From Nakamurella endophytica (lineage in GTDB: Bacteria > Actinomycetota > Actinomycetes > Mycobacteriales > Nakamurellaceae): DNA of 64,000 nt. The stretch covers positions 62,001 through 126,000 of the forward strand of contig NZ_BMNA01000008.1 of NCBI RefSeq assembly GCF_014646215.1. Direction: 5' to 3'. Both the position numbers and the translations under genes were made by a program. This document shows positions 7,550 through 29,061 of the stretch, in pieces. Position 1 is the first letter of the stretch; every line of letters begins with the position of its first letter. The notes beneath the pieces are model-generated. The model searched no databases and was not told the origin of the DNA. It saw nothing but the letters and a program-made list of their open reading frames with translations.

Positions 7550-8683
7550 TCAGCAGGACGCCTTGTAGGCGGCGCCCGAGCTGTCGACGTTGTCCTTGGT
7601 CAGGATGGTGAAGCCCGTCTGGATCTTCGGGGTCACCTGCCCGCCGTCGAGCGCGGCGACAGCCTGGTCCAGGCCGTAGGTGCCGATCTGTCCGGGCTGC
7701 TGGGCGACAAGGGCCTGCACGATGCCGCCCTTGAGGTCCTTGACCTGGCCGGGGCCGGCGTCGAAGCCGACGATCTTGACCTGGTTGGTCTTCCCGGACT
7801 GCCGGACGGCGGTGGCGGCACCCTCGGCGGCGAACAGGTTGGCGCCGAAGACGCCGACCAGGTCGGGGTCCTTCTGCAGTTGCGCCGCGACCTGCTGGGT
7901 CGCCGTGGCCGGGTCGTCCTTGGAGTACTGGACGCCGACGGAGGTGAACTTCGAGTCGGCCTTGACCGCGTTCTGGAAGCCCTCGTTGCGCTGGTCGGTG
8001 GTGGAGATGCCGGGGTTGACGGACTCGACCATCACCTTGCCGCCGTTGGGCGACAGCTCCTGGATCGCCTTGAACGCCGCGGCGCCGCCGCCGACGTTGT
8101 CGGACGAGACCTGGGACACCGCGAACGAGGGATCCTGTGTGGTCGTGTCCACCAACACGATCTTGATGCCGGACTTGGCGGCGTCGGCGAGCGGCTGCTG
8201 GAGCGCCTGGACGTCCGTCGGGGCGATCAGGATGGCGTCCGGCTTGGTCTGCACGACGGAGTCCAGGATCGGCCGCTGCAGGGTCGGGTCGAACTGCTTG
8301 GGGCCCTGGGTGGTCACCGTGACGCCGAGCCGCTTGGCCTCGGCCTCGATGCCGCACTGCATGGTGATGTAGAACTCGTCACCCTGCACGCCCTGGATGA
8401 AGGCGATCTTGTAGTTCTTCGACGCCTTGGTCGGCGCGACGATGCTGGGCGAGGAGGATCCCGACGAGGCCGACCCGGACGTGGCCATGCCCGAGGACGA
8501 GCTCGAGTCGGTGATCGAGGACACCACGGAACCGGCCGCGGAGGTCGCGGACGACACCACCGAACCGGCCGCCGAGGTTGCGGAGGACACGGCGTCCGCC
8601 GGCTTCGACGACGAACACCCGGCGACCGCGAGCATCGCCAGCACGGCGCCTCCCGCGGTCGTCGCAAGCACGGATCGCTTCAT
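7550..8683 (-). CDS. Sugar ABC transporter substrate-binding lipoprotein
   Basis: Periplasmic-binding-protein type 1 (RbsB/FrcB-like, CUT2 importer class), 377 aa. A signal peptide ends in the lipobox LAVAGC, then comes a Ser/Ala-rich tether with a repeated SSATSAAGSVV segment, then the binding fold from residue about 90 (YKIAFIQGVQGDEFYITMQ; DAILIAPTDVQAL; VGFDAGPGQV). The ATG at 8683 has AAGGGA 6 nt upstream. An in-frame GTG at 8698 overlaps the permease stop but looks less likely. It is the last gene of the operon and is followed by the terminator at 7472-7507. Family knowledge says such proteins bind pentoses, hexoses or polyols; the ligand here cannot be read from sequence. Confidence 0.92.
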   Translation of the reverse strand: MKRSVLATTAGGAVLAMLAVAGCSSSKPADAVSSATSAAGSVVSSATSAAGSVVSSITDSSSSSGMATSGSASSGSSSPSIVAPTKASKNYKIAFIQGVQGDEFYITMQCGIEAEAKRLGVTVTTQGPKQFDPTLQRPILDSVVQTKPDAILIAPTDVQALQQPLADAAKSGIKIVLVDTTTQDPSFAVSQVSSDNVGGGAAAFKAIQELSPNGGKVMVESVNPGISTTDQRNEGFQNAVKADSKFTSVGVQYSKDDPATATQQVAAQLQKDPDLVGVFGANLFAAEGAATAVRQSGKTNQVKIVGFDAGPGQVKDLKGGIVQALVAQQPGQIGTYGLDQAVAALDGGQVTPKIQTGFTILTKDNVDSSGAAYKASC

Positions 8684-8694
8684 TGCAATTCCCT

Positions 8695-9768
8695 TCACTT
8701 GGCTGTGGCCGCCGACCTGGCGGCCCTTCGGTTCTTGCGTGCACCCCGCAGCGCCGCGGCGCGGCGGGTCTGGTCGACGTAGACGGCGGCGACGAGGACG
8801 ATGCCCACCGCCACGCCCTGCCAGAACGGCTCGACACCGATGATGACGAAGCCGGTCTGCAGCACGGCGGGGATGAACAGACCGACGACGGTACCGAACA
8901 TCGAGCCCTCCCCGCCGAAGATCGAGGTCCCGCCGATGACCACCGCGGCGATCACGTTCAGGTTGGTGAGCGTGTTGCCGGCGATCGTCGTCGTGGTGAA
9001 CTGGGCGAGGTACATGGTGGCACCGAGCCCGGCGAGCGCGCCGGTCATCAGGTAGATGTAGATGAGCTGCCGGTCGACCTTGACGCCGACCCGCCGTGCC
9101 GCCTCCTCGTTGGACCCGACCGCGAAGGTGTACCGGCCGAACCGCGTTCGGTGCAGCACGATCCCGCCGACGATCACGACGATCAGCGCGACGAACGCGA
9201 GACCGGGTATGCCGAGGATCTTGTCATACGCGGCGAAATCCGCAAGAGCAGTCGGCACTGCACGGATGTCGATGCCGCCGGTGATCACCTGGGCGAGACC
9301 CAGTGCGACCGAGAGGCTTCCGAGGGTCACGATCAGCGCAGGCACCTTGGCCTTCGCGACCAGGAAGCCGTTGACCCAGCCCCACGCCCCGCCGCTCACG
9401 ATGGCGACGAGCAGGCCGACCAGCGCTGTTCCCCACCCCTGACCGCCCATGGCCTCCATGACCTTGGCGGCGATGACCGAGGAGAACGTCAGCACCGACC
9501 CGATCGACAGGTCGATGCCTGACGTGATGATCACGAACGTCACGCCGACGCCGAGGACCGCGAGGACAGCGAGGTTCTGGGAGATCTGCAGGAAGTTGCT
9601 GGCCGAGAAGAAGTTGCGGCCACCGGTGATCGCGAAGAACACGATGATCACGACGAGCACGCCGAGGATCCAGACCGACTGCGCGCCGGTCATCTTCTTG
9701 ATCCAGGACTCGCCGGTCTCCTGCCGGTCGACCGGCTGGCCGGTGTCGGTGGTCTCGAGGGTGCTCAC
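8695..9768 (-). CDS. Sugar ABC transporter permease (RbsC/FrcC-like)
   Basis: 357 aa, BPD_transp_2 type. After a polar N-terminus of about 30 residues there are 8-10 hydrophobic segments. The family's hallmark region is VIITSGIDLSIGSVL, and the cytoplasmic loop GSNEEAARRVGVKVD contacts the ATPase. The C-terminus is strongly basic. The GTG start overlaps the ATPase stop by 4 nt (GTGA) and only 11 nt separate its stop from the binding-protein start. It forms the membrane channel of the CUT2 importer encoded by the three adjacent genes. Confidence 0.93.
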   Translation of the reverse strand: MSTLETTDTGQPVDRQETGESWIKKMTGAQSVWILGVLVVIIVFFAITGGRNFFSASNFLQISQNLAVLAVLGVGVTFVIITSGIDLSIGSVLTFSSVIAAKVMEAMGGQGWGTALVGLLVAIVSGGAWGWVNGFLVAKAKVPALIVTLGSLSVALGLAQVITGGIDIRAVPTALADFAAYDKILGIPGLAFVALIVVIVGGIVLHRTRFGRYTFAVGSNEEAARRVGVKVDRQLIYIYLMTGALAGLGATMYLAQFTTTTIAGNTLTNLNVIAAVVIGGTSIFGGEGSMFGTVVGLFIPAVLQTGFVIIGVEPFWQGVAVGIVLVAAVYVDQTRRAAALRGARKNRRAARSAATAK

Positions 9769-10535
9769 GCGGCATCCCGCCCGTCGGAAACCTCCAGCGC
9801 GCCGGTCATCGCACCGACCAGCTGCTCCACCGAGGTGTCGGCCGCGGTGTAGGTGGCGATGCGCCGGCCCAGCCGCATGACCTGGACCCGGTCGGCCACC
9901 TCCAGCACGGCGGGCATGGAGTGCGAGATCAGAACCACGGCGACTCCTCTGTCGCGGACCTTCTTGATGGTCTCCAGGACGTTCTTGGTCTGCACCACGC
10001 CCAGGGCGGCTGTGGGTTCGTCGAGAAACACCACCTTGCTCGCCCAGGCGATCGCCCGGGCGATGGCGATGCCCTGCCGCTGGCCACCGGACATCGAGCC
10101 CACCGGCGAGGTCATCGACCGGACGGTGGCGCCCAGCTCGTCGAAGCTGGCCCGCGCCTTGCGCCGCATCTGCTTGTTGTCCATGAAGCCCAGCCATCCG
10201 GCGATGCCCTTGGCCGGTATCTCCCGGCCCAGGAAGACGTTCTCGGCCGGGTCCAGGTGCGGCGCCAGCGCCAGATCCTGGTAGACCACCTCGATGCCCA
10301 TCGCCGCAACCTGTTGCGTCGAGGTCATGTGGACCGGTTTGCCCTCGAAGAGGATCTCCCCGGAGTCCAGCTGGAGGTTGCCCGACAACGCCTTCACCAT
10401 CGTCGACTTCCCGGCGCCGTTGTCGCCGATGAGAGCGACCACCTCGCCGGCGTTGACGTCGAAATCCGAGTTGTCCAGCGCCTGGACGTGACCGAAGGCG
10501 CGGGAGAGCCCTCTTGCTTCCAGGATCGGGGTCAT
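9765..10535 (-). CDS. Sugar ABC transporter ATP-binding protein (single domain)
   Basis: 256 aa with one nucleotide-binding domain: Walker A GDNGAGKST near residue 38, a Q-loop (VVYQDLALAP), signature SGGQRQGIAIARA, Walker B VVFLDEPTAALG and switch His in LISHSM. Most CUT2 importers (RbsA, XylG, AraG) use a fused pair of such domains of about 500 aa. A half-length ATPase recalls the FrcBCA fructose system, where it must act as a homodimer. ATG overlaps the aldolase stop (ATGA) and its own stop overlaps the permease start. Confidence 0.92.
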   Translation of the reverse strand: MTPILEARGLSRAFGHVQALDNSDFDVNAGEVVALIGDNGAGKSTMVKALSGNLQLDSGEILFEGKPVHMTSTQQVAAMGIEVVYQDLALAPHLDPAENVFLGREIPAKGIAGWLGFMDNKQMRRKARASFDELGATVRSMTSPVGSMSGGQRQGIAIARAIAWASKVVFLDEPTAALGVVQTKNVLETIKKVRDRGVAVVLISHSMPAVLEVADRVQVMRLGRRIATYTAADTSVEQLVGAMTGALEVSDGRDAA

Positions 10536-11455
10536 GCGTTCGCCACCACCTCTGTGTAGGGCCGCGCGCGGCCGTCGATGACCTTGACGAGATCGTCGAG
10601 CCGGCGGCGTCCGGTCTCCGACAGGAACGCGCGCCGCTCCTCGCGGCCCATGCCGACCGCTTCCTTCCAGATGGATCGTCCGGCGATGAAGCCGCTGGTG
10701 CCACCCTCGTCGCAGGAGATCCGCAGCGCGTCGGCGAACTGGTCGAAGCCGACGCCCGCGGACAGCACGGCCCAGGGCACGTGCAGCGACTCGGCCAGCC
10801 GGCGGCAGGACGCCGCGTCGCCCGGGTACTCCAGCTTGATCAGGTCGGGACGCAGCTCGTCGAGGGCGATGGCCGCTTCGATGATCCGGTCGGCACGCTG
10901 CTGCGGCGTCGGGGGCTGCTCGCCCGCCAGCGGGTAGATCAGGTTCTCGATGACCGATGGGATCCCGGCGGCCCGGCAGTCCTCGACGACCTCCCGGACC
11001 ACCTCGAGCACCTCCGCGGAGATGTCCGGCTCGCCCGCGCCGGGCCTGCGGTCCGCGCGCAGCTGGACCAGGAACTTGACCGCGTGGCCGCCCTGGCGGC
11101 GCACCCACTCGGCGTTCAGCGCCGGGTCGCGGTGGGTCCGCGGCTCGCCGTTGAACGTCCCGCGGTCCGACGGCTCGGCGGCGACCAGCACGCCGAACGA
11201 CGAGCCCCCCGGCAGGTCGGGCAGCTCGGCCAGCGCCGGCACGCCGTAGGTCGGGTCGAGCAGGAAGGCGGAGGCGCTCGGGCTCAGCGACTGGACGGTG
11301 TCCGCCTTGATCTCCGTCAGCTCCTCGGGCGTCGCATCGGCGATGCCGACCGCGGCGTACATGCGCTTGAGGGTGTTGCGCTGGTCCATGGCGACGATGG
11401 CGAATGTCTCGTCGGTGGTGGCGATGGCGGACAGGCCGGTCTTCTCGGGACTCAT
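10532..11455 (-). CDS. LacD/YihT-like class I sugar-bisphosphate aldolase
   Basis: 307 aa, TIM-barrel aldolase of the tagatose-1,6-bisphosphate (LacD) / sulfofructose-phosphate (YihT) family. Recognisable segments are VAMDQRNTLKRM near the N-terminus, FLLDPTYG, HAVKFLV, and DLIKLEYPGD, whose Lys207 is the likely Schiff-base lysine. The SAGVGFDQF segment near the C-terminus fits phosphate binding. GGAGGAGAT precedes the ATG, which also overlaps the kinase stop by 4 nt. In the operon it would be the final, carbon-carbon-cleaving step giving triose phosphates; whether the substrate is tagatose-, fructose- or another ketose-bisphosphate is open. Confidence 0.85.
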   Translation of the reverse strand: MSPEKTGLSAIATTDETFAIVAMDQRNTLKRMYAAVGIADATPEELTEIKADTVQSLSPSASAFLLDPTYGVPALAELPDLPGGSSFGVLVAAEPSDRGTFNGEPRTHRDPALNAEWVRRQGGHAVKFLVQLRADRRPGAGEPDISAEVLEVVREVVEDCRAAGIPSVIENLIYPLAGEQPPTPQQRADRIIEAAIALDELRPDLIKLEYPGDAASCRRLAESLHVPWAVLSAGVGFDQFADALRISCDEGGTSGFIAGRSIWKEAVGMGREERRAFLSETGRRRLDDLVKVIDGRARPYTEVVANA

Positions 11456-12942
11456 ACGGGGATCTCCTCCAGGGGGGCGGCGGTGCGGTGGGCACCTCGG
11501 GTGAACACGGCGGCGTACTGCTGACTGGGACCGGGGAGGTCGAGCGGGACCCCGCCCCGTCCGGCGGTCGCGTCGTCGGGGACCCGGACGCCGCGTTCGG
11601 ACTGTTCGGCTGCGAAGGCGGCGAACATCGCCGCTCCGAAGGCCCCTGCCTGGGTGCGGTCGGAGAACCGCACGTCGGGCAGGGAACGTTCCTTGGCCCG
11701 GCGGACGGACTGCATACGCGTCCAGCCGCCGGCGACGGTGGCGCCGCTGGCCGGCCCCACCTCCGACTCCATGCGGGCCAGCGCCAGGCCGGCCTCGTCG
11801 ACGCCGTGCGCGAGCGTGGCCAGCCACAGCGCAGTCGGGTCGACGCCGTCGGCGTCCACCACGACCCGCAGGGCACCGTCGCTGTTGTCGGCACCGGTGA
11901 CGCGCACACCGTCGGGGCGCGGGATGGAGTCCGCGGCCACCGCGGCCTCGTCCAGCCGGGCCCGCGCGGCCGGTTCCGCGGCGCCGAGCAGCTGCAGCGT
12001 GCGGCGCATCAGCAACCCGGCCTTGGTGCCGGCGAGCAGCAGCCGGCGACCCTCCAGCACGTGGTGCACGGAGTTGATGTTGGCCTGCGCCAGCCGCTCC
12101 CGGGCGTCCCGGGCCAGCGGTGTGGAGACCGTGCGGACCAGCGCCTCGGCGGTGCCGAAGGAGTCGAAGACCTCCTCCGGGCCGACGACGCCGCAGCCGA
12201 CGGCCGCCACCGGGTGGTCGTGGCCGGCCACCGTGAGGGCGGCGCCGTGCAGCTCCGCGGGGACGTCGTCCCCGCCCGCGACGCCCCAGCACACCCCGGC
12301 CCGGGCGGCGGGCGGCAGGAGGTCGGCGGTCGCGCCGAGGGCATCCAGCGCGACCGGCCACAGCCGCTCGGTGTCCTGGTCCAGCAGGCCGGTCCTGGCC
12401 AGCAGCGACATCTCGGTGGCCATCTGCCCGCCGAGCCGGTGCACCAGGTACTCCGGCACGTTCAACCAGCGGCAGCCGGCCAGATCCGTGCCCTGGACCC
12501 GCATCCAGGCCAGCTTGGCGATGGTCGCCAGCGGCGAGAGCGGCAGGCCGGTGGTGCCCTGGAACCGGGTGACGAGCTCTTCAGGCAGCCGGCGCACCTC
12601 GTCCTCGCCGCGCGGGTCGAACCAGGCGATGACCGGGTGCAGCGGGCGGGCGCCGCGGGTCGGGCCGTCCAGCAGGACGCCGGCCTCGGCCATGCCGGTC
12701 ACCGCGATGCCCGCCACGCGGACCGGCCCCAGCGCGTCGGCACCTGCCTCGACGGCCCGGCGGAGCAACGCCACGACGTCGTCCACCAGGGTCTGCGGCT
12801 CGGTGTCGGTCAGTGCGCCGGCGTGGGTGCGCCACCGGGTGGGTGTCGCGACGGACGTCACCTCCTGGCCGTCGCGGGTGGTCACCAGCACCTTGGAGTC
12901 GCTGGTCCCCACGTCGACGCCGAGCAGGATGTCCCGGGTCAC
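11452..12942 (-). CDS. FGGY-family carbohydrate kinase
   Basis: 496 aa, normal length for FGGY kinases (gluconokinase/xylulokinase superfamily). The N-terminal ATPase core has the phosphate loop LLGVDVGTSDSKV (residues about 5-17) and AGIAVTGMAEAG. The second domain has VAGHDHPVAAVGCG, FDSFGTAEAL and the C-terminal GATVAGGWTRM adenosine loop. The GTG start overlaps the ManA-like gene stop (GTGA). It looks closest to the gluconokinase-like branch, but substrate assignment inside FGGY is unreliable. In this operon it most likely phosphorylates the imported sugar or polyol. Confidence 0.88.
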   Translation of the reverse strand: MTRDILLGVDVGTSDSKVLVTTRDGQEVTSVATPTRWRTHAGALTDTEPQTLVDDVVALLRRAVEAGADALGPVRVAGIAVTGMAEAGVLLDGPTRGARPLHPVIAWFDPRGEDEVRRLPEELVTRFQGTTGLPLSPLATIAKLAWMRVQGTDLAGCRWLNVPEYLVHRLGGQMATEMSLLARTGLLDQDTERLWPVALDALGATADLLPPAARAGVCWGVAGGDDVPAELHGAALTVAGHDHPVAAVGCGVVGPEEVFDSFGTAEALVRTVSTPLARDARERLAQANINSVHHVLEGRRLLLAGTKAGLLMRRTLQLLGAAEPAARARLDEAAVAADSIPRPDGVRVTGADNSDGALRVVVDADGVDPTALWLATLAHGVDEAGLALARMESEVGPASGATVAGGWTRMQSVRRAKERSLPDVRFSDRTQAGAFGAAMFAAFAAEQSERGVRVPDDATAGRGGVPLDLPGPSQQYAAVFTRGAHRTAAPLEEIPV

Positions 12943-14024
12943 CGCGGACCGTCCTGCGTGGACAGGGTTTCCGGCCAGCCGGCGCCGGGACGGCAGGCCA
13001 GCAGCCGCACCTCGCCGGACACCGTCCAGTCGCCGAACGCGTGCGGGACGGCGAGCACCTGGCCGGCGGCGACGTCGACGGGACCGTCGCTGCCGGTGAG
13101 GCGGCCGGCACCGGCGAGCACCACGACGACCGCGAAGCCGGCGTCCACCGAAGGCAGCGCTCCGCCGTCCGGGGCGCACAGCTGCAGCCGGAAGAACGGG
13201 TCGGCGGCGGCCGGCAGCAGCGGCACCGGGGTGTCCGCCACGGTGTCCGGGTCGGTGTGCACCACGAGGGCGGCCACCTGGTCGGCCGACATGGCGCGGT
13301 GGTTCACCGCACCCATCACCCGCGGGAAGCCCAGTCCCAGGTGCGATTCATCGAGAGTGGCCGTGGTGACCGACCACTCCAGCAGGATCGACCAGTCGCT
13401 GGGCTCCTGCAGCTCGGCCACGAACACGCCCTCGCCGATGGCGTGCACCGTGCCGGCGGGGAGCAGGATGCCGTCGCCGGGACGGACCCGCACGCGGTGC
13501 ATGCGGCTGAGCATCCACGCGGAGTCCTGGGCGTCCACCCGCCGTTGCAGCTCGTCCGGTTCCACGTCCTCGGTGAAACCCAACCACACCGAGGGCTCCT
13601 CGCCCGTGGTGCCGAGCACGAACCAGGACTCCGTCTTGCCGTAGGGGCAGTCCAGGTGCGACCGGGCGAAGGCGCGGTCCGGGTGGACGTGCACCGGCAG
13701 CCGCTGGCCGGCGTCGAGCAGCTTGACCAGCAGCCCGGTGTCGCCGGCCGGGAGCGCTGCGGCCGCGTCGGCCGGCACGCCGAGCCACGACTGCGGGTCG
13801 GCGGCGACCGCGTCGCGCAGCAGCCGCCCGTCCGGGAGCCGGCTCAGCCCCAACCCGTCCTCGCCGAACCGATGGGTGGTGGCCGCCAGCCACTCCTCCG
13901 GGCGGCGGAGCACACCGTCGGCCGGCGTCGGGGAGGTGAAACCGCGCAGCCGTTCGATGTTGCCGCCGCCGGCGTAGAAGTGGTCGATGACATTCGGTGG
14001 CAGCACCACCGGCACCTGGTTCAT
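12939..14024 (-). CDS. ManA-like class I sugar-6-phosphate isomerase
   Basis: 361 aa cupin metalloenzyme related to mannose-6-phosphate isomerase. The four zinc ligands expected in the family can be read: His112 and His114 in LPVHVHPD, Glu132 in GKTESW, and His194 in PAGTVHAIGEG. The family proline-rich start and the LQEPSDWSILLEW segment are also present. Family role: interconversion of aldose- and ketose-6-phosphates. Because it sits in a transport operon with two kinases and an aldolase, it probably supplies the ketose phosphate for that pathway and need not be the cell's general mannose isomerase. It starts 22 nt after the LacI gene. Confidence 0.85.
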   Translation of the reverse strand: MNQVPVVLPPNVIDHFYAGGGNIERLRGFTSPTPADGVLRRPEEWLAATTHRFGEDGLGLSRLPDGRLLRDAVAADPQSWLGVPADAAAALPAGDTGLLVKLLDAGQRLPVHVHPDRAFARSHLDCPYGKTESWFVLGTTGEEPSVWLGFTEDVEPDELQRRVDAQDSAWMLSRMHRVRVRPGDGILLPAGTVHAIGEGVFVAELQEPSDWSILLEWSVTTATLDESHLGLGFPRVMGAVNHRAMSADQVAALVVHTDPDTVADTPVPLLPAAADPFFRLQLCAPDGGALPSVDAGFAVVVVLAGAGRLTGSDGPVDVAAGQVLAVPHAFGDWTVSGEVRLLACRPGAGWPETLSTQDGPR

Positions 14025-14046: not shown

Positions 14047-15045
14047 TCACGGCCGGAGCTCCCCCGAGCCGCGTTCGACGAGCTGGAGTGGCAGCACGAT
14101 GTCCTCCGGGGGCAGGCGCTGGCCGCGCATCCGGGCGAGCACGCGCACGGCCGCTGCCTGGGCGAGCGGACCCGGGTCCTGGTCGACGACGGTCACCGCG
14201 GGTCGCAGAGCGTCGGCCAGGTCGAAGTCACCGAAGCTGACGAGGGCGACGTCGAGTCGATCCGCCCGGTGCAGCGCCGAGACCACCCCAAGGCTAGCGC
14301 GCGGGTTCGAGGAGAAGATCGCCGTCGGCGGCTGCGGCAGCCGCAGCAGCTGCTCGGTCGCCTCGGCGGCCGCTGCGGCCACCGAGCAGTCGGTGCGCAC
14401 CAGCTCGGGCGCGGGTGCGAGGCCGGCCTCGGCCAGGGCCCGCAGGTAACCCTGCTGCCGGTGCACGATCGTCGTCAGCTCCGGCGACTCGCCGAGAAAG
14501 GCAATGCGCCGGTGGCCGTGGGCCAGCAGGTGCCGGGTCGCCCGCAGTCCGCCGTCCTCGTCCTCGACGCCGACGGTGTCGAAGCCCGGCAGCTCCCAGC
14601 CGCGGTCCACCAGCACGATCGGCATGCCGGGGGCGGCGTCGAGCAGGTAGCGGTGGTCGTGGCCGTTGGGGGCCAGCAGCAGCGCACCCACGTTCTGCTG
14701 CAGCAGCCGGAGCACCTGCCCCTTCTCCCGGCTCACCGAGCGCCCGGTGGATGCGATCAGCACGCTCACGTCCTGCGCCAGCGCCAGCTGCTCGACGACC
14801 GAGACCAGGCTGGCGAAGAACGGGTCGGCGATGGAGTCGACGACCACGCCGATGGTGTCGCTGCTGCCTGTGCGCAGCGACCGCGCGATGGGATTGCGGA
14901 CGTAGTCCAGGTCGGCGACGGCCGTCATCACCCGCTCCCGGGTCTCCTTGCTGACCTCGTCCGAGCCGTTCACCACCCGCGACACGGTCTTGATCGACAC
15001 GCCGGCCGCGCGGGCGACGTCGTACACGGTCGCCCGGGGCGTCAC
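14047..15045 (-). CDS. LacI-family repressor of the sugar operon
   Basis: 332 aa. An N-terminal helix-turn-helix (VYDVARAAGVSIKTVSRVVNG) is followed by the hinge YVRNPIARSLRTGSS and a periplasmic-binding-like effector domain (DTIGVVVDSIADPFFASLV; VLVDRGWELPGFDTVGVED). The GTG start overlaps the stop of the upstream PfkB gene by 4 nt, so the repressor lies inside the operon it probably controls. Its natural targets are the two TGACAACGCTGTCA palindromes at 16029 and 16139, which have the central CG and arms typical of actinobacterial LacI operators. The inducer is unknown. Confidence 0.93.
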   Translation of the reverse strand: MTPRATVYDVARAAGVSIKTVSRVVNGSDEVSKETRERVMTAVADLDYVRNPIARSLRTGSSDTIGVVVDSIADPFFASLVSVVEQLALAQDVSVLIASTGRSVSREKGQVLRLLQQNVGALLLAPNGHDHRYLLDAAPGMPIVLVDRGWELPGFDTVGVEDEDGGLRATRHLLAHGHRRIAFLGESPELTTIVHRQQGYLRALAEAGLAPAPELVRTDCSVAAAAAEATEQLLRLPQPPTAIFSSNPRASLGVVSALHRADRLDVALVSFGDFDLADALRPAVTVVDQDPGPLAQAAAVRVLARMRGQRLPPEDIVLPLQLVERGSGELRP

Positions 15046-15992
15046 CGCGGTTCCGCCTCGATCTGCTCGAACAGCTCGAGGGCGCGGGCACCGTCCAGGA
15101 TGCCGGCCACCGCCGTCTCGCAGGAGGCGGACGCCGTCGCCATGCCCAGCCGGACCACGTCGACGTCGGCGTCGCCGCGGGCCAGGGCGATGCCGGCGCC
15201 GGCGGCGAAGCTGTCCCCGGCGCCGATGGGGCTGACCAGGTGGACGGTGGGGGAGGGTAGCCACCAGACGCCGTCGGCCGTGGCCAGCGCGGCGCCGGAC
15301 CCGCCGGCGGTCACCACGGCGCGGACGGCTCCGGCCCGGCGCAGCTCGCGTGCGGCGGTGACGGCCCGGTCCGGCACGTCGTCGCCGGTCTCGTTGACGT
15401 CCTCGTCCACCCGACCGAAGAGCATGCCTTCGGCCTCGGACAGGTTGGGGGACACCAGGTCCGGGCCGGTCGGCAGGGCGGCCCGCAGCACCGGCGGGGC
15501 ACCGTCGACGACGACCGGGACACCGGCCTCGTGCCCGAGCCGGGTCAGCTCGCCGTAGGCCTCCACCGGCACGCCCGGGGGCAGCGAGCCGGAGCACACC
15601 AGCACGTCCTGGCCGGCGAGGGCGGCGCGGACGCCGTCCACGAAGCGGGACCAGTGCGCGGCGTCGATCTCCGGCCCGCGGCCGTTCACGACGGTCACCT
15701 GCCCGTCGTCCGGCAGGAAGATGGTGACGACCCGGAGGACGCCGTCCACGGGTACCGGCAGGAACGCGGTGCCCTCGCGACCGAGCAGGGTGGCGAAGCG
15801 GTCGCCGTCCTCCCGCGGCAGGAAGCCGGTGAGCACGCCGGCCACACCGTGCGCGCGGGCGGCCCTGGCGACGTTGACGCCCTTGCCACCGGCCGTGGTC
15901 TCGGTGCCGGTGGCCCGCAACACTGCCCCGGGCACCAGTCGCGGCACGCGCACGGTGATGTCGAGGCAGATGTTGGGCGTGGCGATCAGCAC
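15042..15992 (-). CDS. PfkB-family 1-phosphofructokinase-like sugar kinase
   Basis: 316 aa ribokinase-fold kinase. It opens with VLIATPNICLDIT, has the substrate loop TAGGKGVNVARA (residues 33-44) and the catalytic anion-hole motif GAGDSF with Asp260. The N-terminal pattern (TPNxxLD and GGKGxNVA) is that of FruK/LacC enzymes that phosphorylate C1 of ketose-6-phosphates or C6 of ketose-1-phosphates. The GTG at 15992 was chosen because GGAGGG lies 6 nt before it; an upstream ATG at 16079 would run through the proximal operator. It is the first gene of the eight-gene operon, and upstream of LacD-like aldolase action it would make the bisphosphate. Confidence 0.87.
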   Translation of the reverse strand: MLIATPNICLDITVRVPRLVPGAVLRATGTETTAGGKGVNVARAARAHGVAGVLTGFLPREDGDRFATLLGREGTAFLPVPVDGVLRVVTIFLPDDGQVTVVNGRGPEIDAAHWSRFVDGVRAALAGQDVLVCSGSLPPGVPVEAYGELTRLGHEAGVPVVVDGAPPVLRAALPTGPDLVSPNLSEAEGMLFGRVDEDVNETGDDVPDRAVTAARELRRAGAVRAVVTAGGSGAALATADGVWWLPSPTVHLVSPIGAGDSFAAGAGIALARGDADVDVVRLGMATASASCETAVAGILDGARALELFEQIEAEPR

Positions 15993-16028
15993 CGAGAGCC
16001 CTCCGGGGTTCCGCGGCCGGCGAGCCGC

Positions 16029-16042
16029 TGACAGCGTTGTCA
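16029..16042. promoter_or_regulatory. LacI-type operator, proximal copy
   Basis: A perfect 14-bp palindrome in the LacI style (TGACAGCG half; minus-strand reading TGACAACGCTGTCA), 36 nt upstream of the PfkB start. It is identical to the copy centred 110 bp further upstream. Confidence 0.8.
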
Positions 16043-16138
16043 CGGACGTCCGCAGATATCGCGTCGCCCGCCGGGCCACTGGGCACGTCGGGGGATCGCC
16101 GTGCCGTCGGACGTCGGTTCCGTCACTCTGCCTGGGGC

Positions 16139-16153
16139 TGACAGCGTTGTCAA
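16139..16153 (-). promoter_or_regulatory. LacI-type operator, distal copy, overlapping a -35 box
   Basis: The second TGACAACGCTGTCA copy (16139-16152). With one more T it gives a perfect -35 hexamer TTGACA on the minus strand (16153-16148), so a bound repressor would block polymerase. The -10 is weak (CAGAGT at 17 nt spacing). The rest of 16043-16281 shows no other convincing feature. Confidence 0.75.
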
Positions 16154-16281
16154 CCCGTGACGGGGCTCACTTCGGTCACGATCGGATCGCGCCGGCGGCC
16201 TCGCCGGTGACCCGGCGCTGCCGTGCCGTCCGGCCGGTCCGGGCGCCGCTCCGGCGTCCCGGGCGGACGGGATCCTCGCGG

Positions 16282-17049
16282 TCAGGAGGCCGGGTCGGCG
16301 CCGGTCACGTCGACGGTCTCGCCGATGACGTAGCTGCTGTGCGGACCGGCCAGGAACGCGATGACCTGGGCCACCTCGACGGGATCGGCCAGCCGGCCCA
16401 CCGGGACGGCCTGCCGGACCCGGTCGGTGTACGCGCCCGGCGGCAGGCCGAGGTGGGCGGCGTACGCGCCGTCGACCTGGTCCCACATCGGCGTCCGGAC
16501 GATGCCCGGGGCGACCGCGTTCACCCGGATCCCGGCGCGGATCAGGTCCAGGGCCGCGGACCGGGTGAAGCTGATGACCGCCGCCTTGGTCGCGGCGTAC
16601 ACGCTGGACAGCGGCTCGCCGCGGCGACCGGCCTGCGAGGCCACGGTGACCACGGTGCCGCCGCCCTGCCGGACCATCACCTCCGCGACGGCCTGCAGCA
16701 GGAAGAACATGCCCTTGCAGTTGACCGCGAAGGTGCGGTCGTACTCGGCCTCCGTCACCTCGGCGAAGGGCTGCAGGCTGAAGACGCCGGCAGCGGCGAC
16801 CAGGATGTCGATCCGGCCGACGCGGCCGGCGATGTCCGCGACACCCGTTCGCAGGGCGCCGGTGTCGCGGACGTCGAGCGCGGCGGCGCCGGCGTCGCCA
16901 CCGATCGACGCGGCGACCGGGGTGGCGGCCTTGACGGTGCGGTCCGCGACGACGACGCGGGCGCCCTGGGCGGCCAGCAGTGTCGCGGTGGCCGCGCCGA
17001 TGCCGCTGCCACCACCGCTGATCAGCGCGGTCCTGCCGGTGAGGAGCAC
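16282..17049 (-). CDS. SDR-family NAD(P)-dependent sugar/polyol dehydrogenase
   Basis: 255 aa classical short-chain dehydrogenase. The Rossmann motif is SGGGSGIG (residues about 11-18), with Asp at the end of beta-2 (VVVADRT) suggesting NAD preference. Also present are the AAAG motif, catalytic Ser in VTVASQAG and YAATK (Tyr-x-x-x-Lys), and VNAVAPGIVRT after the active site. An AGGAGG precedes the GTG start. It is the last gene of the ROK-Gfo/Idh-isomerase-hydrolase-SDR run, 79 nt after the hydrolase. Its likely role is oxidation of a polyol or sugar intermediate; the substrate is not readable. Confidence 0.9.
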   Translation of the reverse strand: MLLTGRTALISGGGSGIGAATATLLAAQGARVVVADRTVKAATPVAASIGGDAGAAALDVRDTGALRTGVADIAGRVGRIDILVAAAGVFSLQPFAEVTEAEYDRTFAVNCKGMFFLLQAVAEVMVRQGGGTVVTVASQAGRRGEPLSSVYAATKAAVISFTRSAALDLIRAGIRVNAVAPGIVRTPMWDQVDGAYAAHLGLPPGAYTDRVRQAVPVGRLADPVEVAQVIAFLAGPHSSYVIGETVDVTGADPAS

Positions 17050-29015: not shown

Positions 29016-29061
29016 GGATAACGTTATCCGCAGTGTGGCGGTCGACCGTGCCGGTTGTCAA
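29016..29061 (-). promoter_or_regulatory. Promoter and palindromic operator of the LacI-aldolase operon
   Basis: On the minus strand: perfect -35 TTGACA (29061-29056), 18-nt spacer, -10 CACACT (29037-29032), and then the perfect 14-bp palindrome GGATAACGTTATCC (29016-29029) at the expected transcription start, followed by GGAGG and the ATG. The order promoter-operator-RBS is textbook. Confidence 0.85.

Follow-up and report, generated by a model that had tools for sequence, protein, structure and literature searches.

In the lac operon of E. coli, a tetrameric LacI acts at several operators (O1, O2 and O3). In the gal operon of the same species, GalR is described as binding in the form of dimers at operators 113 bp apart, with phase-dependent looping in the presence of HU (PMC4693257). 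A GalR-type loop requires HU, which binds at its apex. For the LacI family at large, about 20% of operons are reported to carry more than one site, with peaks in the distance between sites at 13, 22 and 32 bp, the latter two of which were interpreted as two dimers binding cooperatively (Ravcheev et al., 2014; PMC4052901). The same source gives a rule by which LacI-family sites are centred on CG, and tandem sites with helical spacing are already known in this family.

The locus described here lies in a 64-kb stretch of DNA (the window, meaning this stretch at its full length) and is in itself an ordinary LacI-controlled sugar operon (Table 1). Like lac, it is a sugar operon with several operators and probably a Crp site; unlike lac, it encodes a repressor without a tetramerisation helix, and its layout is different. 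Comparison with gal reveals a likeness, with a LacI/GalR-family repressor, presumably one dimer per operator, two like operators ~110 bp apart and the second operator in the (here predicted) transcribed region; phase matters in gal (PMC4693257). Two features of a GalR-type system, the absence of a tetramer helix and the presence of two like operators, are found here, whereas an upstream operator outside the promoter is not: OE of gal is placed at −60.5 (OI at +53.5), while O1 of the window overlaps the −35 box. Furthermore, gal has two promoters and this operon one, and the loop proposed here is a putative one.

Table 1. Features of the operator region and operon in the window.
Feature	Position	Strand	Basis
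O1, promoter operator TGACAACGCTGTCA	16139..16152	-	sequence
O2, leader operator TGACAACGCTGTCA, 110 bp downstream of O1	16029..16042	-	sequence
-35 element TTGACA, sharing five bases with O1	16148..16153	-	sequence; aligned in relatives
-10 element CAGAGT, weak consensus, 17-bp spacer from -35	16125..16130	-	sequence; relatives
Estimated transcription start, ~7 bp past -10	16118	-	inferred from -10 position
Crp/GlxR-like site GTGAGCCCCGTCAC, centre ~-45, just upstream of -35 box	16157..16170	-	motif GTGA-N6-TCAC
pfkB-type hexose kinase, GTG start, RBS GGAGGG 16004-15999	15042..15992	-	
LacI-family repressor, 332 aa, GTG overlaps pfkB stop (GTGA)	14047..15045	-	
Mannose-6-phosphate-isomerase/cupin-like protein	12939..14024	-	
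FGGY carbohydrate kinase, N-terminal boundary uncertain	11452..13068	-	
DeoC/LacD-type aldolase	10532..11464	-	
Ribose-type ABC ATPase, single domain	9765..10538	-	
Ribose-type ABC permease, N-terminal boundary uncertain	8695..9774	-	
Sugar-binding protein	7550..8698	-	

The ABC ATPase of the operon has 257 aa and matches just the first half of the ~500-aa RbsA/AraG models. The initial annotation had described two perfect copies of a palindrome 110 bp apart as LacI-type operators with a dedicated repressor at 14047. On the minus strand the two copies match without a single difference, and TGACARCGYTGTCA occurs at O1 and O2 and nowhere else in the genome (4,937,361 bases searched). With up to two mismatches allowed, the window contains five strand-matches against 0.24 expected, a count of at least five being reached in none of 100 shuffles; a pair of identical CG-centred near-palindromes 15–160 bp apart occurs once in the window and in none of 40 simulated 64-kb sequences. 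As is typical of LacI-family operators, the palindrome is even with a central CG, lies near the lacI operon and is kept in related operons. The assignment to a dedicated repressor is borne out by this genome-wide rarity beside lacI and by the conserved pairs in relatives: because two sites are present in 11 of 13 related operons, O1 and O2 are, judged from sequence, almost certainly the operators of the cognate LacI encoded at 14047–15045.

These 13 operons, in which pfkB directly precedes lacI (pfkB-lacI operons), were found among 35 compared loci, two of which (L033 and L096, on contigs of equal length) are apparently one locus. They comprise six from the same genus (the window, L054, L055, L056, L059 and L060), four from one other genus (L081, L082, L083 and L090) and the further members L098, L029 and L031. 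The samples from which they were drawn were 17 genomes of the genus, identical to the family-level sample; 397 genomes of the order, with at most five candidates scored in each; and a genome-contig scan with 28 loci, of which L026–L033 entered the operon tables and L034–L053 (at most 35% identity) were scanned for pairs only. L027 was left out of the judgement because only 239 bases of contig precede its lacI. An FGGY gene is present in all 13 pfkB-lacI operons and a lacD gene in all except L031; ABC genes are present in ten, and none were seen in the stretches covering L031, L081 and L090.

All six own-genus pfkB-lacI operons have a first site fused to TTGACA, a CAnnnT box 17–18 bp further on and an identical second copy downstream. 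The single site of L031 is likewise fused to the −35 box, and L029 has a site fused to the variant TGGACA together with a second, weaker copy that lies 33 bp upstream. In L082, L083 and L090, GACAACGATTACC occurs twice, with one copy in L082 off by one base, and the TTGACA is unfused and lies upstream of both copies, by 41–46 bp and more; L098 has a similar layout with the site GACATCGATTACC, and L081 has a single site. The second site of L098, 1026 bases upstream of lacI, is also fused to TTGACA and perhaps belongs to a second promoter. The site sequence is lineage-dependent (TGACAACGCTGTCA; GACAACGATTACC), and the pair is nonetheless kept. That 11 of 13 operons retain it despite this sequence change links the sites to their repressor and suggests that pairing itself is under selection.

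At most one site lies near the gene in many LacI relatives outside the pfkB-lacI operon. A single TGACATCGATGACA is located at −137 to −139 in L084, L087, L089, L091, L093, L096 and L097; no site was found near the lacI gene of L057, though its LacI is 61% identical. The former loci and L086 encode LacI relatives in another gene setting, with lengths of 371–383 aa, longer C-termini than the pfkB-lacI operon repressors and one TGACATCGATGACA-like site near −138 each. The only LacI relative in the class-level sample at E up to 1e-85 is the window's own (1 of 394), as it is in the phylum-level sample at E up to 1e-78 (1 of 396); plasmid records hold one LacI relative, at 43.8% identity.

The fusion of O1 to the −35 box, also claimed by the initial annotation, is seen in the window, where O1 starts at the second base of TTGACA, and in the alignment of all six own-genus operons. 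A sigma-70 consensus scan of 15900–16400 returned no promoter because the −10 element is weak; the predicted promoter at O1 relies on conservation across related operons. TTGACA occurs three times in the window, both strands together, and the copy at 29061 (minus strand) is the sole other one with a CAnnnT or TAnnnT box 16–19 bp on. The presumed leader of ~126 nt contains O2, which starts ~76 bp downstream of the estimated transcription start and ends 36 bp ahead of the pfkB GTG. No intrinsic terminator was found in 15900–16400, and unusual RNA structure in the leader was ruled out (z −0.04 for 15985–16118).

The motif GTGA-N6-TCAC, for which Crp/GlxR is presumably the cognate protein, occurs six times in 512 kb of loci. 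Five of these occurrences are in control regions (the window, L054, L055, L056 and L060); the motif is missing from the other ten of 15 control regions tested. Its position varies among the five of six own-genus operons that have it, lying between the two operators in L054–L056 (about +22 to +24) and far upstream in L060. A Crp-like site between operators could bend a loop.

The spacings in the 11 two-site operons are 110 bp (window); 87, 88 and 89 bp; 44 and 44 bp; 67, 56 and 79 bp; 91 bp (L098); and 33 bp (L029). A circular test was chosen after the data had been seen, and its period was allowed to vary from 10.0 to 11.8 bp. The 11 spacings together gave R 0.84 for a period of 11.10 bp (p 0.0006; post hoc, close relatives included). 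Merging L054–L056 and L059/L060 (n=8) gave R 0.84 at 11.15 bp (p 0.007, post hoc), and further removal of the weak L029 (n=7) gave R 0.83 at 11.05 bp (p 0.018, post hoc); for a strict set of six, from which the 91 bp of L098 and the 33 bp of L029 were withheld, R was 0.91 at 10.95 bp (p 0.010, post hoc). Spacings of 80, 81, 91 and 114 bp fit the period poorly. The evidence for helical phasing of operator spacing is suggestive, coming as it does from few and related operons. As the related operons fit 11.0–11.15 bp per turn, 110 bp would correspond to about ten turns; in vivo lac looping data have been fitted with 10.95–11.6 bp per turn (PMC1762422). The earlier figure of about 10.5 turns follows correctly from 10.5 bp per turn, but would place the two sites out of phase, on opposite faces of the helix, which is unfavourable for a loop. 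The case for phasing comes from the related operons: their spacings make helix-dependent cooperation of the two sites, as the annotation had proposed, probable, whereas the loop itself is putative and the literal 10.5 turns at the window argue against it.

Pairs of operator-like sites were also surveyed more widely. Scans for TGTCANCGNTGNCA and TGACANCGNTGNCA pairs at 15–75 bp in 170 order genomes gave matches in 12 and 8 genomes, respectively, at 20 distinct places, which include two pfkB-lacI operons and several related clusters and hence do not represent 20 independent events. Neighbouring sites are 23–25, 33–35 or 44–45 bp apart at all 20 places, the lone 57-bp match having a third site inside (24+33), and the reversed control pattern matched one genome per scan. 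A survey around LacI genes of the genus (170 loci, 1.44 Mb, with 30 loci and 100 further stretches taken among 282 LacI matches) gave, among the matches listed, 29 CG-centred pairs against four centred on GC and none on AT or TA. From the 29 we dropped L201 (71), L203 (39), L215 (33) and L225 (30, 60), judged to be GC-rich background. L179 (15) was dropped as well, distances of 57 bp between outer sites with a third site between them were not used, and the CCCGCACGTGCGGG triplet of L031 (51, 102, 51) was left out. With one spacing per class, the own-genus spacings gave p 0.005 (n=11), and p 0.064 (n=8) without the pfkB-lacI operon family. None of 20,000 random sets was as extreme as the combined 21 spacings, from which 31 bp (L038) and 114 bp (L048) had been left out; a set including these two and without later-added operons gave p 0.0008 (n=18). 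Exact TGACANCGNTGTCA pairs at 15–75 bp were found in none of 379 genomes of the class-level sample, where the sole own-genus member is the window's genome, with its spacing out of range, and long-spacing TGTCA-type pairs in none of the 17 genus genomes. Elsewhere in the same genome, contig C3 carries TGTCACCGGTGACA-type pairs at 305289–305337 (L105) and 685727–685798 (L112/L114), with spacings of 35, 34 and 24 bp that also fall within the helical classes. In L159 (4774–4896), an unrelated palindrome, TCGAAGCGCTTCGA, occurs twice upstream of another lacI, 109 bp apart, a distance similar to the window's 110 bp.

How the two sites might act together depends in part on the repressor. The initial annotation had proposed looping by a tetrameric LacI, and two identical operators at a loop-compatible distance would suit a lac-type tetramer bridging O1 and O2. 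The protein has a LacI helix-turn-helix (PF00356, 5.3e-18) and a periplasmic-binding-like core (PF13377, 2.4e-29), with RbsR and PurR also aligning across the core; its alignment covers LacI residues 4–327 and it ends ~6 residues later, just past the dimer core. No C-terminal tetramerisation helix was found in alignment to LacI or among the 13 pfkB-lacI repressors, all of which end 3–7 residues after RGSGE. A tetrameric repressor was consequently rejected, and we regard the tetramer bridge as highly improbable. O2 might instead serve another promoter, or buffer the repressor passively as part of a reserve of sites, as its identity to O1 and the TTGACA-fused second site of L098 would allow. Yet in the window no −10-like box stands at the right distance after O2 and the promoter scan is empty, and the first and second copies match exactly within each of the six own-genus operons, the window included, which speaks against decay; both versions seem to us improbable.

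A weightier alternative is that the sites are independent, with a dimer on O1 blocking the −35 box and a dimer on O2 acting as an elongation roadblock only, in the absence of contact or loop. The position of O2 relative to the estimated start falls within the 30–102 bp range of measured LacI roadblocks, for which effects of up to 25-fold are reported at weak to moderate promoters (PMC4132739). The second site lies downstream of the promoter in ten of the 11 two-site pfkB-lacI operons, and a range of spacings as wide as 33–110 bp is compatible with independent sites. A roadblock, however, has no need of phase, and the spacings cluster near multiples of 11 bp. Nor is the second site always downstream of the start: in L029, L026 and L028 (the latter two being lacI-PMI-ABC operons with no pfkB gene alongside) the additional site stands upstream of the one fused to the −35 box, where a roadblock is impossible, the promoters in these three loci being our reading and the upstream site of L029 possibly serving a divergent gene instead. 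The spacing pattern and these upstream sites weaken the case for independent sites, which we consider rather unlikely.

We lean, by a modest degree, towards a helix-phased cooperation of two LacI dimers resembling that of GalR, in which block of the promoter at O1 is assisted from O2. A repressor dimer on O1 would cover the −35 box and block RNA polymerase, and another dimer, bound within the transcribed leader at O2, would strengthen repression by dimer–dimer contact on the same face of the DNA, probably through looping of the ~ten turns between O1 and O2 as for GalR in the gal operon. O2 may in addition act as a roadblock. Both dimers would leave the DNA in response to a sugar or sugar phosphate from the pathway; lacI, as second gene of the operon, would be autoregulated, and a Crp-like protein probably modulates the promoter. 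An ordinary loop needs more than the 23, 33 or 44 bp seen between some sites, and a single series may therefore combine loops with side-by-side contacts.

The peaks named in the text of Ravcheev et al. end at 32 bp, whereas here a single operon family spans 33–110 bp in near whole-turn steps (PMC4052901). A search of titles and abstract openings found no literature in which the distance between operators shifts by whole turns from one related operon to another, and this drift is the sole, mildly novel, point of the present work. Tentatively, the dimeric LacI-family repressors that govern sugar operons in actinobacteria might form loops or contacts like those of GalR, the length of which would change during evolution by whole turns of the helix, with face and partner sites kept; the series behind this whole-turn reading is about 33, 44, 56, 67, 79, 88 and 110 bp. 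If true, it would constitute a natural record of an in vivo helical repeat near 11 bp. The related species thus offer a natural series of operator spacings in one operon family, which would separate phase dependence, dimer looping and roadblocking in a simple reporter, beyond the two E. coli models.
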